From Acidihalobacter prosperus (GTDB lineage Bacteria; Pseudomonadota; Gammaproteobacteria; DSM-5130; Acidihalobacteraceae): DNA of 64,000 nt. Of this stretch, positions 5,278-29,256 are shown piece after piece (the stretch's first letter is position 1; every line of letters begins with the position of its first letter). Made by a program: the position numbers and the translations under genes. Where the stretch lies: the NCBI RefSeq assembly GCF_000754095.2, contig NZ_JQSG02000001.1, positions 419,140 through 483,139 on the forward strand, given 5' to 3'. The notes beneath the pieces are model-generated. The model saw only the letters and a list, made by a program, of their open reading frames with translations. It searched no databases and was not told the origin of the DNA.

Positions 5278-6141
5278 TTAAACCATTAGATCATTTTTCA
5301 TGCGGCGATAATAAGTTGCGCGACTCACCCCCATAGAAACCCATGGCTTTCCACTAAGTGTTGTTGTCGCAGGACGCCCACCACGCTTGCCTCTGGCGGA
5401 CTGAATAGCAGAAAAACGACTCTCGTTGAAGTGCTGCCAAGTCCACTTAGCGACACTTTTTGCAGTTGCTTTGACCTCATTATTAGGCAGAGGAATATCG
5501 AACACATTCAGATTTTCTGCTTGCGCGAAAACTGCGCGATGCCATTCTGACACTGTGGCCTCATTCCGCTTGTATTCTCTAACCCATTGATATGCCCAAG
5601 CCCTGAGTTCATCGAACATAGTACAGTTTCGCCCAAGGCCAAGCGTTTCGCGTTGAGCATTATGCTTGGGGAGATCCACCCACTCAGCCAACTCATTTAG
5701 ATCGTAAAGATGATGAACCCATATTGACCGCCAATTATCGTGATAGGGATTTTTAGCGATGAGCCCAGCGTAGCCTGGATCAGCGCGCAGCTTAGCCAAG
5801 AAGGCTGCTTGCAGGGCGGCAGCGTAACGAATCGGCGCATCACGTGCGGCTTCACTCGTTACGACGGGTGTTTCCAATCCATAGAACAGGTGAGCGTGAG
5901 CGTTCTGCGGATTGATGACCGTCATCGTCGGCGGGGGAAGATTGGCATGCTCCCAAGCGAAGGCGGCACCGGGATAGTCTAGATCAAAGACCAGCCAGGC
6001 GACTGATAAAGGCGCGTTTGGCTGAATGTAGCGGTGTTCCATTGCGTCAATTGCTGGGCGAATCAGTAAACCTTGGCTCAACTCATTCGAGCAATATGGT
6101 CGACGCGGAAGTCGACTTTCAAATATTGTATGGATATTCAT
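5278..6141 (-). CDS. ColE2-family replication initiator/primase Rep
   Basis: Protein of 287 aa, the normal length for ColE2-type Rep. Residues about 10-60 (LPRRPYCSNELSQG, WLVFDLDYPGAAFAWE) and 70-90 (TVINPQNAHAHLFYGL) are the Replicase-domain signatures. NPYHD near residue 146 and LGLGRNCTMFDELRAWAY near 180 belong to the primase C-terminal part. The end (GVSRATYYRRMKND) is the origin-binding helix-turn-helix region. ColE2 Rep binds its origin and synthesises the primer for DNA polymerase I. The gene is full length with no frameshift, although it sits in an integrated island. The ATG at 6141 has no Shine-Dalgarno sequence and follows a hairpin directly, consistent with the SD-less translation known for ColE2 rep. 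Confidence 0.93.
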   Translation of the reverse strand: MNIHTIFESRLPRRPYCSNELSQGLLIRPAIDAMEHRYIQPNAPLSVAWLVFDLDYPGAAFAWEHANLPPPTMTVINPQNAHAHLFYGLETPVVTSEAARDAPIRYAAALQAAFLAKLRADPGYAGLIAKNPYHDNWRSIWVHHLYDLNELAEWVDLPKHNAQRETLGLGRNCTMFDELRAWAYQWVREYKRNEATVSEWHRAVFAQAENLNVFDIPLPNNEVKATAKSVAKWTWQHFNESRFSAIQSARGKRGGRPATTTLSGKPWVSMGVSRATYYRRMKNDLMV

Positions 6142-13928: not shown

Positions 13929-14799
13929 CAGACTGCTTCGACCCCATCAGTGGACCAAAAACCTGTTCGTGTTCACTGGCATCGTGTTTTCTCACCGCTG
14001 GGGCGAGGCGGGCCTATGGTATCAGGTCATTTCTGCCGCAGTGGCGTTTTCGTTGGCATCCAGCGGGATTTACGCGATCAACGATGTGGCCGACCGGGAG
14101 CAGGATCGCGCCCATCCGCGCAAGCGCCGGCGGCCCGTGGCCAGCGGTGCGGTTTCGCCGTTGCAGGCGCTGATCGTCGGTGCGGGCTGTCTGGCGCTGG
14201 CACTGGCACTGGTGGCGCAGGTGTCACTGGTCGCATTCTGGCTGCTGACGGCCTACATCCTCATGAACGGCGCCTATTCGTTCCGCCTCAAGCATGTCGT
14301 CGTGCTCGATATTTTCATCATCGCCGCCGGCTTCATGTTGCGTCTGCTGGTCGGCACGGAAGGTGTGGGCATCGAGCCCTCGCGTTGGCTGTTGCTGTGC
14401 GGTTTCATGCTGACCCTGTTCCTCGGGGCGGCCAAGCGCCGGGCCGAGCTGATGGAGATCGCCGGCCGCGACGAGGAGTCGGCCGGTCGGCACCATGGCC
14501 AGCGCCGTGTGCTTGACGACTACACGCCGGCGCTGCTGGATTTGATCCTCGGCATTACCGCGACCGCCAGCATCATCACCTACGGGCTCTACACCATGAG
14601 TCCCGAGGTCATCCGTATCCAGGGTACCGCCAATCTGATCTACAGCCTGCCTCTCGTAATCTACGCGCTGTTCCGTTATCTGTACCGGCTCTATGGCCAT
14701 GGCAGCGGCGGCGACCCGTCCACCGACTTGTTCCGCGATCCCCACCTGCTGGCGGTTGGGCTGTTGTGGGTCGTCGTCACGCTGGCACTGCTGAGTTGA
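13915..14799 (+). CDS. UbiA-type polyprenyl-phosphate phosphoribosyltransferase
   Basis: Membrane protein of 294 aa. MRAYIRLLRPHQWTKNLFVF is the typical start of the decaprenyl-phosphate phosphoribosyltransferase group. The prenyl-phosphate/Mg motif is NDVADREQDRAHPRKRRRP near residues 58-76, and LFLGAAKRRAEL near 165 is a family marker. The enzyme transfers 5-phosphoribose from PRPP to a polyprenyl phosphate, the committed step to lipid-linked D-arabinose. It is divergent from the DprE1/DprE2-like genes that would use its product. A phosphatase for the 5-phosphate is not present nearby, as is often so. Other UbiA roles (quinone, heme) are less likely given these motifs. Confidence 0.85.
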   Translation: MRAYIRLLRPHQWTKNLFVFTGIVFSHRWGEAGLWYQVISAAVAFSLASSGIYAINDVADREQDRAHPRKRRRPVASGAVSPLQALIVGAGCLALALALVAQVSLVAFWLLTAYILMNGAYSFRLKHVVVLDIFIIAAGFMLRLLVGTEGVGIEPSRWLLLCGFMLTLFLGAAKRRAELMEIAGRDEESAGRHHGQRRVLDDYTPALLDLILGITATASIITYGLYTMSPEVIRIQGTANLIYSLPLVIYALFRYLYRLYGHGSGGDPSTDLFRDPHLLAVGLLWVVVTLALLS

Positions 14800-14810
14800 A
14801 TGCCGTCCGG

Positions 14811-14854
14811 CACCAAAGATACGCGCGGCGAATCTTCGGCGCGCCACTTTGGTG
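14811..14854. repeat. Long hairpin between the UbiA-type gene and the sRNA promoter
   Basis: CACCAAAG (14811-14818) pairs with CTTTGGTG (14847-14854), with further GCGCG/CGCGC pairing inside. It follows the UbiA-type stop codon by 11 bases. It lacks a T-run, so it may be a Rho-type or processing end. Lying 55-100 bp upstream of a sigma-54 promoter, it could also be an activator site. Confidence 0.45.
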
Positions 14855-14908
14855 CAATAAGTGTCACTCAAGGCGGTGGATTGCTCGAATCCTGCCGGTT
14901 TTCAGGTT

Positions 14909-14924
14909 TGGCACGGTCTCTGCA
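14909..14924 (+). promoter_or_regulatory. Sigma-54 promoter
   Basis: TGGCACGGTCTCTGCA keeps the invariant GG (14910-14911) and GC (14922-14923) with the required 10-nt separation, and matches the RpoN consensus TGGCACG-N4-TTGCA at all but one position. Transcription is expected to start near 14935, at the base of a strong hairpin, and no protein frame follows. Confidence 0.7.
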
Positions 14925-14934
14925 TTACTACGAC

Positions 14935-15006
14935 CAGGATCAAAGTTATGCCTTGATCCTGGTCGACTCCTCCTGCTTCTGGGGCGCCATTGGCGCCCCT
15001 TTTTTT
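14935..15006 (+). ncRNA. Candidate sigma-54-dependent small RNA
   Basis: A transcript from the sigma-54 site would be about 72 nt. Its 5' part is a stem in which CGACCAGGATCAA (14931-14943) is exactly complementary to 14953-14965 with a 9-nt loop; the first few bases of the left arm may precede the start. A single-stranded linker, ACTCCTCCTGCTTCT (14966-14980), follows, then a terminator hairpin with a T7 tail. The CUCCUCCU linker is complementary to Shine-Dalgarno sequences, as in C-rich-loop trans-acting sRNAs. No start codon with a ribosome-binding site lies inside. I do not recognise a named family. Confidence 0.55.
14981..15006 (+). terminator. Rho-independent terminator of the candidate sRNA
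   Basis: GGGGCGCC (14981-14988) pairs with GGCGCCCC (14992-14999) around ATT, followed by seven T residues (15000-15006). A very strong intrinsic terminator. Confidence 0.85.
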
Positions 15007-15087
15007 ATTATTTATTCAATGAGATGCCCCCTTTCGCATAACATGGGCGCTCGTGGTTCTGACTTAGCCGGGTTGCGCGGCTTGGGC

Positions 15088-15399
15088 TCAGCCTGCGGCT
15101 GACAAGGCTGCGGGGCCGAGATGAAGCGCATAGGCGATCCAGCCGAGGCTCAACAGGATCAACGGAAAGATCGTCCAGGGCGTAATGAGGCGACGGAAGA
15201 TCGCGCTTGCGGGACGATATCCAAGGCCATAGATGAAACCGCCCGCGGCGGCCAGTGTGGCAAGCGCGAACAGTGGCTCGCGAATGCCCTCGCCCGAGAA
15301 GGCGATCGTCCACGGATAGGACATGACCAACAGCGCAACCGCGGCGCCGCCACACAAGGCGATGCCATTACTCAGGCGTGCAAGGGTTTGAGGCGACAT
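15088..15399 (-). CDS. ybgE: Cyd operon protein YbgE
   Basis: Protein of 103 aa with three predicted membrane segments (about 12-30, 42-60, 74-95). Composition and position at the end of the cyd operon fit the YbgE family (Cyd_oper_YbgE), an accessory inner-membrane protein of cytochrome bd whose exact role is unclear. The sequence FSGEGIREPLFALATLAAAGGFIYGLGYRP is typical of the group. It follows the CydX-like gene by 75 bp on the same strand. Confidence 0.75.
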   Translation of the reverse strand: MSPQTLARLSNGIALCGGAAVALLVMSYPWTIAFSGEGIREPLFALATLAAAGGFIYGLGYRPASAIFRRLITPWTIFPLILLSLGWIAYALHLGPAALSAAG

Positions 15400-15717: not shown

Positions 15718-16869
15718 TCAATAGGCATGGTCGTCGGTGGTCACGTGTTTTGCGGTGACCTTGCCGCGCATCACCCAGTAGCACCAGCTGGTGTACACGA
15801 GGATGGTGGGTACGAACACGATGGTCCAGCCGAGCATCCAGCCGAGTGTGGTGGCGCTCGACGAGGCGTTCCAGACCATGAGGCTGTGGGTGGGGTCCGT
15901 CACCGACGGCATCAGGAAGGGAAAGGTGGCCGCGCCCACAGTGCCGAGAATACCGATCCAGGCGAGCGCCCCCAGCCACCAGGCCACATGGGAACGCCCG
16001 GCCCTTGCCAGCAAAGTGGCCAGCGCGACGCCGGCATAGGCCAGCAGCGGCAGCAACCAGAGAATCGGATGAGTCGCGTAGTTGTGCAGCCACCCTCCGG
16101 GGACAATGGAAACGGGCTGCGTCACCAGCGGGCTGGCCTGCATGCCGGGATCGACCGTACCGTCGATCACGAAGCCCTTCATGTTGGCGACCCAGATGCC
16201 GGCCACCGTGAACAGCACCAGGGCAAGCGGCCCGGCCAGCGTCGCCACGCGACGGGCGCGCTCGTACAGAGCGCCTTCGCCCCGGTTCATCAGCATCAGC
16301 GCGCCCATCAGCGCCGACATTGCGACCGAGAGTAGCCCGGCCAGGATCGCGAAGGGATTGAACAGGCTGATGAAGCTGCCGGTGTAGACGGAGACGGCGG
16401 TGCCTTCCTGTGCGAAGTGGAAGGGAAAGCCCATCAACACGTTGCCCATCGCGGCGCCGTATACGAGCATCGGCACGAAACCGCTGACGAACAGGGTCCA
16501 GTCCCATACGTTGCGCCACTGTGGCGAGACCAGCTTGCTGCGGTATTCGAAGCCCAAAGGACGAATGATCATCGACCACAACAGCACCAGCATCACCACG
16601 TAGAGCCCCGAGAAGGCCGTGCCGTAGATCGTCGGCCAGGCGGCGAAGATCGCGCCGCCGCCGAGAATGAACCAGACCTGATTGCCGTCCCAATGCGGGC
16701 CGATGATGTTGAGCGCGATGCGGCGATCTTCGTCCGTGCGCCCGACGTAGCGCAGAATGGTGCCGACACCCATGTCCATGCCCACCATGATGGCGAGCCC
16801 CATCAGTAGTACGCCAAGCAGCAGCCACCAGACGATTTTGAGTATTGCGTAGGTCGTGAATACTTCCAT
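15718..16869 (-). CDS. cydB: Cytochrome bd oxidase subunit II
   Basis: Protein of 383 aa, usual length. The N-terminus LKIVWWLLLGVLLMGLAIMVGMDMG and the stretch NIIGPHWDGNQVWFILGGGAIFAAWP are CydB signatures, with eight to nine membrane segments overall. CydB pairs with CydA to form the quinol oxidase that reduces oxygen with high affinity and without proton pumping. It follows cydA by 17 bp on the same strand and precedes the cydX-like gene. Confidence 0.97.
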   Translation of the reverse strand: MEVFTTYAILKIVWWLLLGVLLMGLAIMVGMDMGVGTILRYVGRTDEDRRIALNIIGPHWDGNQVWFILGGGAIFAAWPTIYGTAFSGLYVVMLVLLWSMIIRPLGFEYRSKLVSPQWRNVWDWTLFVSGFVPMLVYGAAMGNVLMGFPFHFAQEGTAVSVYTGSFISLFNPFAILAGLLSVAMSALMGALMLMNRGEGALYERARRVATLAGPLALVLFTVAGIWVANMKGFVIDGTVDPGMQASPLVTQPVSIVPGGWLHNYATHPILWLLPLLAYAGVALATLLARAGRSHVAWWLGALAWIGILGTVGAATFPFLMPSVTDPTHSLMVWNASSSATTLGWMLGWTIVFVPTILVYTSWCYWVMRGKVTAKHVTTDDHAY

Positions 16870-16886
16870 GATGTCCTCTCTCGCGC

Positions 16887-18479
16887 TCAGTCGCGGTTGG
16901 GTGCCAGCAGGGGATGGGCAAACACGGGCTGGCCGGCCAGGCTGCCGCCGGCTTGAGAACCGGGTTCGTCGGGACCCTTGCGCACGAACTTGGTCATCAG
17001 ATACATCTCGACCACGATGAAGCTGGTGTACAACAGGACAAACCCCGTCAACGAAAATATCATGTAGCTCGCGCTATGCGTCGAGGCCGAAATCCAGGTC
17101 GGCAGCTGTTCGTATACCGTCCATGGCTGGCGCCCCACCTCGGCGGTGACCCAGCCCATTTCGCAGGCGAAGAAGGGCACCGGAATGAACCAGGGAGCAA
17201 TCTTGAGGAACCCGGTTCGCCGGCAGTCGGTCTTGAGCGAATACAAGGTCGCGAAGACCAGGAAGATGAGCATCGCAAAGCCCGCCGCCACCATCAGACG
17301 GAACGACCAGAACAGGATCCAGACCTCGGGAATGGTGTCCTTGGCGGCCTTTTCGATCTGCGCGGGCGTGGCTTTGGCAACGTCCGGTGCATAGCGCTTG
17401 AGCAGGAAGGCGTACCCCAGATCCTGTTTGTGTGCGTCGAAGGTGGCCAGCGCTTGCTTGTTGTCCGGATTCTGCTGGATCGCTTCCAGTGCGGTCAGTG
17501 CCGGAATGCCGTTTTTGATGCGCTGCGCCGCCTCCTGTTCGAGTTGTTTGATGCCGACGATCGGCGTGCTCAAATCGTGCTTGACCAGAATGGAAAGCAG
17601 ATAGGGAATCTTGATCGAGTACAGATTGCGCTGCTCGTCCTGGCTTGGAAAGGCGATGGCGTTGAAGCTGGCCGGTGCCTGCTCGGTTTCCCACAGCCCC
17701 TCCATCGCCGCCAGCTTGGTTGGCTGGCGGCCGCCATCGATAAAGCCAAGGGCGTCGCCGAGGGTGATGACGCCGACCGACGACAACACACCGAACAGCG
17801 CCGCCATGCGCAGCGAGCGCCGCGCCAGTTCGACATGACGTCCCTTGCCGAGGTACCAGGCACTGATGCCGACCACGAAGATCGCCGCGGTGACGTAGCC
17901 GGCCAGCGAGGTATGCACGAACTTGGCCTGCGCGTCCGGGTTGAACAGCAGGTGCACGAAGCTGGTGAGTTCAAGGCGCTGGGTGAAGGGGTTGAAGGTA
18001 GCGCCCTGCGGATCCTGCATGAAGCCGTTGGCGACCAATATCCAAAGGGCCGAAAGATTGGAGCCGAGGGCCACCAGCCAGGTCACGGTCAGATGTTGCA
18101 CGCGGCTCAAGCGATGCCAGCCCAGCAGCATCATGCCGACGAAGGTCGACTCCATGAAGAAGGCCATCAGCCCCTCCACTGCCAGCGGCGCGCCGAATAC
18201 GTCGCCCACGTAATACGAGTAGGTCGACCAGTTCGTACCGAATTCGAACTCCATGGTCAGGCCGGTGGCCACCCCGAGGGCGAAGTTGATGGCGAAGAGC
18301 TTGCCCCAGAACTGTGCCATTTCCTTGTAGATCTTGCGTCCAGTGGTGACGTAGACCGTTTCCATGGCGGCCAGGATGAAACTCAGTCCCAGCGTGAGCG
18401 GCACGAACAAAAAATGGTAAAGCGCGGTGGCGGCGAATTGCCAGCGCGACAGATCTACGACCAGATCGCTTGGAACCAT
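16887..18479 (-). CDS. cydA: Cytochrome bd oxidase subunit I
   Basis: Protein of 530 aa. LYHFLFVPLTLGLSF near the N-terminus holds the heme b595 His, FVHTSLAGY near residue 190 the heme b558 His, and GWVTAEVGRQPWTVY near 440 the conserved GRQPW block. A long Q-loop (about residues 255-385) with WETEQAPASFNAIAFPSQDEQRN places it in the long-loop class of E. coli CydA. It oxidises quinol and reduces O2 in the inner membrane. It is the first gene of the cyd operon, with an FNR-type box about 150 bp upstream, suggesting induction at low oxygen. Confidence 0.98.
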   Translation of the reverse strand: MVPSDLVVDLSRWQFAATALYHFLFVPLTLGLSFILAAMETVYVTTGRKIYKEMAQFWGKLFAINFALGVATGLTMEFEFGTNWSTYSYYVGDVFGAPLAVEGLMAFFMESTFVGMMLLGWHRLSRVQHLTVTWLVALGSNLSALWILVANGFMQDPQGATFNPFTQRLELTSFVHLLFNPDAQAKFVHTSLAGYVTAAIFVVGISAWYLGKGRHVELARRSLRMAALFGVLSSVGVITLGDALGFIDGGRQPTKLAAMEGLWETEQAPASFNAIAFPSQDEQRNLYSIKIPYLLSILVKHDLSTPIVGIKQLEQEAAQRIKNGIPALTALEAIQQNPDNKQALATFDAHKQDLGYAFLLKRYAPDVAKATPAQIEKAAKDTIPEVWILFWSFRLMVAAGFAMLIFLVFATLYSLKTDCRRTGFLKIAPWFIPVPFFACEMGWVTAEVGRQPWTVYEQLPTWISASTHSASYMIFSLTGFVLLYTSFIVVEMYLMTKFVRKGPDEPGSQAGGSLAGQPVFAHPLLAPNRD

Positions 18480-27894: not shown

Positions 27895-29256
27895 TTATGT
27901 GACCCTGATTTCGTATTTCTCCATCAAGCGATAGAGCGTAACGCGTGAAATACCCAGATTGCGGGCGGCTTGGGAGATGTTATTGTCGGTGCGCCTCAGA
28001 CATTTGCGGATGGCTTCCGCTTCCGCATCGCTTCTTGCCTCATCCAGGGTCATGAGCTTGACCGACGGATCATTTCGCCCGTCCAAGCCTAGATCCGCGG
28101 GTGTGATGAATCGCTTGTCGGACATGACCATGGCTCGCCGCACGCGGTTGATCAATTCGCGCACGTTGCCGGGCCATTCGTGATTTTTCATCGCCTTGAT
28201 GGCAGCATCGCTGAACCCCTTGATACGATTGCTGCCGTCGGTCGAGAACTTCTTGAAAAAATATTTCGCGAGAATGGAGACGTCGTCACCTCGTTCACGT
28301 AACGGCGGTATCTGCAGGCTCAAGACATTCAGTCGATAATAAAGGTCTTCACGAAAACGTTTTTCCTTAACGGCCAAGTCGATGTCGACATGCGTGGCCG
28401 CAACGATGCGCGCATCCACATAGAGTTTTTCTCGGCTTCCCACACGTTCGATCGTGCCTTCCTGCAGAAATCGCAGCAGGTTGATCTGGAGCTCATGGGG
28501 CAAGTCGCCGATTTCGTCCAGAAAAAGGGTTCCACCCTGCGCGGCTTCGATGAAGCCGATTTTGCGTTCGTGCGCCCCCGTAAAGGCTCCCTTCTCGTGA
28601 CCAAAGAGTTCGGACTGTATCAGCGATGCCGGCAGGGCGCCGCAATTGACGGCCACGAATGGCGCCTCGTGCCTCGATGAACGTTCGTGAATGGCACTGG
28701 CGGCCAGTTCCTTGCCCGTGCCGCTTTCTCCGGTGATGAGAACCGGAGCGTCAACACTGGCGACCTTGCGAATTTGTTGGAACAGGGCCTGCATCGAGGT
28801 GCTGGTGCCCACCATCTCATCTTCCTGCTCGTCATCGATGGTCGGATGCTGTTGGGTGAGCGCGCGCACCATGTCGGCCATGCCGTAAGCATGCCCGAGG
28901 GAAAAGAGCAGGCGGTCGCGGTCGGCCGGCAGGGTATGGTAGTCGTAAAAATAGTCGGCGATGCACTTGCGCAGCGGCTCCGCCGCGAGGCTGTCGATCG
29001 GGAGCAGCGCCACCCATTCGACATGCTGTCTGAAGGTGCCGTTCATGGGGTGAAGCTGATTCAGTGTATCGGTACAGTCAGCCGTGCCATCGAGCTGAAA
29101 CAGTCCCACCTTGATTTCTTGATGGTTGAGCAGTTCGACCGCATCGGGCACGGTATCGGCGAGATGTACCGCCCAGCCTGCCGCGCTTAGCTGGTCGATG
29201 AGTGGGAGCGGTTGCGGATCCGTCTGGTAGAACAGCAGGTTGCGAGCTGCACTCAT
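27895..29256 (-). CDS. Sigma-54-dependent activator, VpsR-like layout
   Basis: Protein of 453 aa. Residues 1-130 are a receiver-like fold without an obvious DD...D...K phosphorylation set. The AAA+ domain (about 145-370) has Walker A GESGTGKELAA, the RpoN-contact loop FGHEKGAFTGAHERK with intact GAFTGA, Walker B GGTLFLDEIGDLP and ENVREL-like NHEWPGNVRELIN. A Fis-type helix-turn-helix ends the protein (NNISQAARNLGISRVTLYRLMEKY). The layout resembles VpsR, but unlike VpsR the loop is canonical, so true RpoN activation is expected. Its target is unknown; the only sigma-54 promoter I see in the window is before the candidate sRNA at 14.9 kb. Confidence 0.93.
   Translation of the reverse strand: MSAARNLLFYQTDPQPLPLIDQLSAAGWAVHLADTVPDAVELLNHQEIKVGLFQLDGTADCTDTLNQLHPMNGTFRQHVEWVALLPIDSLAAEPLRKCIADYFYDYHTLPADRDRLLFSLGHAYGMADMVRALTQQHPTIDDEQEDEMVGTSTSMQALFQQIRKVASVDAPVLITGESGTGKELAASAIHERSSRHEAPFVAVNCGALPASLIQSELFGHEKGAFTGAHERKIGFIEAAQGGTLFLDEIGDLPHELQINLLRFLQEGTIERVGSREKLYVDARIVAATHVDIDLAVKEKRFREDLYYRLNVLSLQIPPLRERGDDVSILAKYFFKKFSTDGSNRIKGFSDAAIKAMKNHEWPGNVRELINRVRRAMVMSDKRFITPADLGLDGRNDPSVKLMTLDEARSDAEAEAIRKCLRRTDNNISQAARNLGISRVTLYRLMEKYEIRVT

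Follow-up and report, generated by a model that had tools for sequence, protein, structure and literature searches.

A probable small RNA gene with a sigma-54 promoter, NtrC-type upstream sites and an anti-Shine-Dalgarno linker in Gammaproteobacteria

Described relatives and layout of the locus

Qrr, GlmY/GlmZ and CrcZ are short intergenic RNAs of Gammaproteobacteria that are transcribed from sigma-54 promoters. They differ in their activators and seeds from the RNA described here, which was found in the window, a stretch of 64,000 nucleotides from Acidihalobacter prosperus. Neither this RNA nor its homologs match any family of Rfam 15 in gathering or E-value mode, and the original prediction, which recognised no named sRNA, thus holds in this respect. 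GlnZ of enterics is also unlike it, since GlnZ derives from the 3' UTR of the glnA mRNA and has no promoter of its own. The closest counterpart in regulation is NrsZ of Pseudomonas aeruginosa, whose synthesis under nitrogen limitation depends on NtrB/C and RpoN; NrsZ targets the ribosome-binding site of rhlA and activates this gene (PMC8395346). Both are sRNAs of the NtrC/RpoN type, the regulator and action of the window RNA being predicted. As described, NrsZ is a processed RNA of ~226 nt from the ntrC-PA5126 gap, whereas the window RNA has ~72 nt, comprises one hairpin and a terminator, and is located 5' of nagZ in relatives. A second point of reference is NfeR1/alpha-r14 of Sinorhizobium with the related 'cuckoo' RNAs, in which an ultraconserved anti-Shine-Dalgarno (anti-SD) motif CCUCCUCCC is kept unpaired while the stems vary. 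NfeR1 silences mRNAs at their SD, blocks the ribosome-binding site of ntrB and is tied to NtrBC, but this alphaproteobacterial RNA has a promoter without sigma-54 boxes that is repressed by NtrC (PMC10746234). The window RNA shares with it an anti-SD motif in an unpaired part; however, NfeR1 has three hairpins that each carry CCUCCUCCC, whereas the window RNA has one 5' hairpin and harbors its motif once, in the linker.

The features of the locus are as follows.

14809-14825, + strand: NtrC-type site 1, weak (half site GCACCA, 8/14 by eye), arm conserved in three genomes of the genus
14840-14856, + strand: NtrC-type site 2, CGCGCCACTTTGGTGCA, 12/14 of TGCACCAnnnTGGTGCA, none of 500 shuffles as good
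14909-14914, + strand: sigma-54 -24 element TGGCAC, invariant in 5/5 family genomes
14921-14923, + strand: sigma-54 -12 element TGC in GG-N10-GC spacing, invariant in the family
14935-15006, + strand: predicted sRNA transcript, ~72 nt, from the expected start (match to covariance model R2, see below, at 14909-15006)
14935-14961, + strand: 5' hairpin CAGGATCAA-AGTTATGCC-TTGATCCTG, 13 bp (14931-14965) with upstream DNA included
14966-14978, + strand: conserved linker ACUCCUCCUGCUU, single-stranded, with anti-Shine-Dalgarno sequence, presumed to be the seed
14981-15006, + strand: intrinsic terminator GGGGCGCC-ATT-GGCGCCCC-T7, its helix maintained through compensatory substitutions in a different order

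Promoter, hairpin, linker and terminator together span 14908-15006. At 14908-14924, the promoter TTGGCACGGTCTCTGCA agrees with the sigma-54 consensus YTGGCACGN4YTGCW at every position. The spacing between GG (14910-14911) and GC (14922-14923) is exactly N10, and the -24/-12 boxes lie just 5' of the RNA, as in sigma-54-dependent sRNA genes. There is one exact match in the 64-kb window compared to 0.03 expected from shuffles, while a tolerance of two mismatches yields 16 sites versus 14.3 expected, and therefore the exact match alone is informative.

Transcription from sigma-54 promoters usually starts ~12 nt past the -12 box, which places the expected +1 near 14935. The inverted repeat of 13 bp (CGACCAGGATCAA/TTGATCCTGGTCG) that had been reported as the hairpin is present, but its outer 3-4 bp are probably not transcribed because of this start, leaving ~9-10 transcribed pairs; the outermost pairs are also those that break in the closest relatives. 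Folding of the strand from 14925 results in the 5' hairpin and the terminator with the linker unpaired (-41.4 kcal/mol, z = -8.1). The terminator has eight pairs, all of them GC, followed by T7; the linker and strong terminator of the original prediction are borne out. On the DNA level, the linker ACTCCTCCTGCTT is unique in the window (0 expected). The only GGA of the RNA sits inside a stem, in contrast to the several loop GGA motifs of CsrA/RsmA-sequestering RNAs, and a CsrA/RsmA-binding role is therefore unlikely.

Conservation and covariance in other orders

The close comparison covered five genomes of the family (G000 to G004). The unit from the -24 box through the T-run is kept as a block in all five, and in the alignment the flanks are variable, in contrast to TGGCAC, TGC, GGATC, TGATCCTGGTCGACTCCTCCTGCTT and the terminator. 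The same folded shape is found in 4/4 relatives of the window within the family, and in the second genus the unit is conserved though the neighbouring genes differ. Promoter, hairpin, linker and terminator are thus co-conserved, and the original prediction passes the test on which it had staked its refutation. Covariation was not significant among the five close genomes alone, which is why an alignment from another order was needed.

Covariance model R1, built from the five family genomes, provided distant candidates in a search of 369 gammaproteobacterial genomes. A pattern composed of the -24/-12 boxes, CTCCTCCT and a T-run, with its reversed version as control, matched 11/369 gammaproteobacterial genomes (control 0) and 11/47 genomes in the order of G110 (control 0); with a strict GCTTTTTT tail it lost most members including the window. 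Two of the former 11 matches (G060, G196) are false and were rejected, as they represent a fliE promoter without terminator hairpin and reach ~22 bits with model R2. Chance promoter-linker matches attain this value, which provides a useful false-positive level. In two genomes, a sigma-54 promoter with CTCCTCCT in the leader is located 5' of a fliE-like gene, at L160:6013-6109 (-) and L161:5829-5926 (+); neither locus has a terminator hairpin, so they are not this sRNA.

In the alignment of the 11 loci from the G110 order, changes on both sides support both helices. The compensatory support amounts to six pairs and 11 cells, a level equalled by 0-1 of 500 shuffles, and 95.8% of the cells are paired versus at most 46% in sliding controls. 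Model R2 was built from these 11 loci alone, without any window sequence. It finds the window unit at exactly 14909-15006 with 63.7 bits (E 1.3e-16) as the sole match in 64 kb, thereby documenting the homology of the unit to loci of another order free of circularity. In total, R2 matches 37/369 genomes at E <= 0.001. The weaker matches contain sigma-54 boxes together with C/U-rich linkers, which do not in every case read CUCCUCC; they are probably relatives or look-alikes and were not counted as members. A search of plasmid records gave no match. Tandem candidate copies of this sRNA type are present in two distant genomes, namely, at G182:C121:16611-16717 and 16788-16898, and at L136:5760-5872 and 5974-6087, the latter pair with clear sigma-54 boxes in one copy only. 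These alignments and models place what is very probably a regulatory RNA in a widespread bacterial family that is absent from Rfam and of a known kind (cf. NrsZ and NfeR1).

NtrC-type sites and the conserved linker

The original prediction had missed the NtrC-type enhancers. The known NtrC box is TGCACCAnnnTGGTGCA (PMC8743547), and site 2 matches it at 12 of 14 positions ~60 bp 5' of the -24 box, an arrangement typical of the NtrC regulon. Site 1 is located on the left arm of an inverted repeat (14810-14826/14839-14855) that is similar to the pair of sites seen in G409 to G412, and TGCACC-N5-GGTGC sites are found upstream in relatives. Of 20 promoters, 11 have a site that fits the E. coli NtrC box at 12/14 and is located 61-93 bp from the -24 box, and the summed site score of 11 representatives is 113, compared to 90.7 +/- 2.6 (maximum 97) in dinucleotide shuffles. 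Genome-wide counts of the NtrC-box pattern were too high to be informative. NtrC is encoded in 12/13 genomes tested above the cut-off, including that of the window; the exception is 75% complete. The enhancer sites at these promoters make nitrogen control of the sRNA by NtrC likely. The window itself also encodes an enhancer-binding-protein domain on the minus strand (28090-28947; NtrC profile 94-377; G000:C1:447229-448086).

Among the transcribed parts, conservation is highest in the linker, and in 18/20 members the linker is predicted to be unpaired (mean P > 0.8). Both points strengthen the earlier suggestion that it is able to pair with ribosome-binding sites, the pairing itself still being a prediction. 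It is exactly complementary to AGGAGGAGU, and its duplex with AGGAGGAG has a calculated energy of -14.3 kcal/mol. An Hfq gene is present in 9/9 genomes tested, including the window's genome. The target search among relatives retrieved 26 matches of GCAGGAGGA before ATG without a shared orthologue across relatives, and a duplex scan of the start sites within the window revealed nothing convincing. In G003, the ATG of a form II RuBisCO-like gene (identified by eye; L186, ~1500) is preceded by AAGCAGGAGGA, which is perfectly complementary to the linker over 11 nt; this gene is a possible target.

Alternative explanations and proposed mechanism

The gene neighbourhood of the unit is variable. In the window and its genus it is flanked by a UbiA-family gene and by a convergent cyd operon, whose nearest gene is of the YbgE family (15088-15399, - strand). 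In nine other genomes (G004, G048, G131, G339, G371, G375, G376, G409, G412), one of them from the same family as the window (G004), the unit is immediately followed by nagZ in the same orientation, which in G048 heads a nagZ-MscS-phosphoribosyltransferase-phosphorylase cluster. This gene begins ~0.9 kb downstream of the unit in G110, G370 and G377 and is absent from the 12 kb examined in G003. The position 5' of nagZ is thus usual but not required, and several members including the window lack it. A second recurring neighbourhood is an HNH-like gene close to sRNA candidates in two unrelated families (L159 and L141; PLEWINYQDAVRLYH / PLRWIPWQDAVCLYS, by eye). The recurrent nagZ synteny could suggest that the unit acts in cis on the gene 3' of it, as a leader or attenuator, but a strong terminator stands between unit and nagZ, the next gene in the window is convergent, and the changing neighbourhoods imply that the RNA moves without nagZ; we regard a leader role as very improbable. 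Even less credible is the reading that the unit encodes a small protein or is nothing more than a terminator separating convergent genes. The downstream gene is indeed convergent and two ORFs overlap the unit (14766-15041 and 14800-15102), but these frames are not kept among homologs, whose length differences break them and which have stops in all three frames across members, whereas conservation extends to promoter, linker and helices, the latter with compensatory pairs. The absence of a protein frame, also claimed originally, is thereby corroborated. What is left is an intergenic non-coding unit ending in an intrinsic terminator, and we are highly confident that the locus is a real sRNA gene.

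Two further alternatives accept this sRNA gene and concern its regulation and action. The same RNA might respond to another activator that recognises a similar GCACC/GGTGC motif, with a signal other than nitrogen. The NtrC profile matches 45 stretches of the genome, of which many represent different enhancer-binding proteins, and no good NtrC-type site was found in G003, G004 and G248, so another activator may serve there; given the close fit to the E. coli NtrC box in more than half of the promoters, we consider this explanation unlikely, yet worth bearing in mind. Alternatively, the CU-rich linker could be no mRNA seed and instead bind Hfq, ProQ or some other RNA-binding protein, or serve as its decoy. 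The lack of a recurrent mRNA target and the several distant candidates that are C/U-rich without being an exact anti-SD, e.g., UUUACCCUCCCUCUCUU, would accord with such a role, but the 13 nt of ACUCCUCCUGCUU are almost identical in two orders, which would be expected of a seed, and its complementarity to the SD is exact, which makes a decoy function rather improbable.

We therefore favour a trans-acting sRNA, for which we infer transcription, activator, Hfq use, targets and direction of regulation as follows. Under nitrogen limitation, phosphorylated NtrC would bind the paired sites at 14809-14856 and activate RpoN-RNA polymerase at 14909-14923, resulting in the ~72-nt RNA. The 5' hairpin would protect the RNA end and present the unpaired linker, of which CUCCUCCU is the part that would pair with the target SD. 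By analogy with NfeR1 and NrsZ, we propose that the linker occludes AGGAGG-type ribosome-binding sites of several mRNAs and blocks their translation, probably aided by Hfq on the terminator U-run. We hold this full mechanism, an NtrC/sigma-54-induced RNA with anti-SD linker pairing, to be probable with moderate confidence.

The original prediction was right in substance, as the locus has the features of a compact RpoN-type sRNA conserved across Gammaproteobacteria; to this the present analysis adds the RNA family, its covariation, its synteny with nagZ and an NtrC-type enhancer. Direct control by NtrC and sigma-54 is known for only a few sRNAs. The covariance models established here would allow annotation of the family, and if the proposed mechanism is true, many environmental Gammaproteobacteria would, through the fixed anti-SD seed of this conserved family, share a post-transcriptional step of the nitrogen-stress response.
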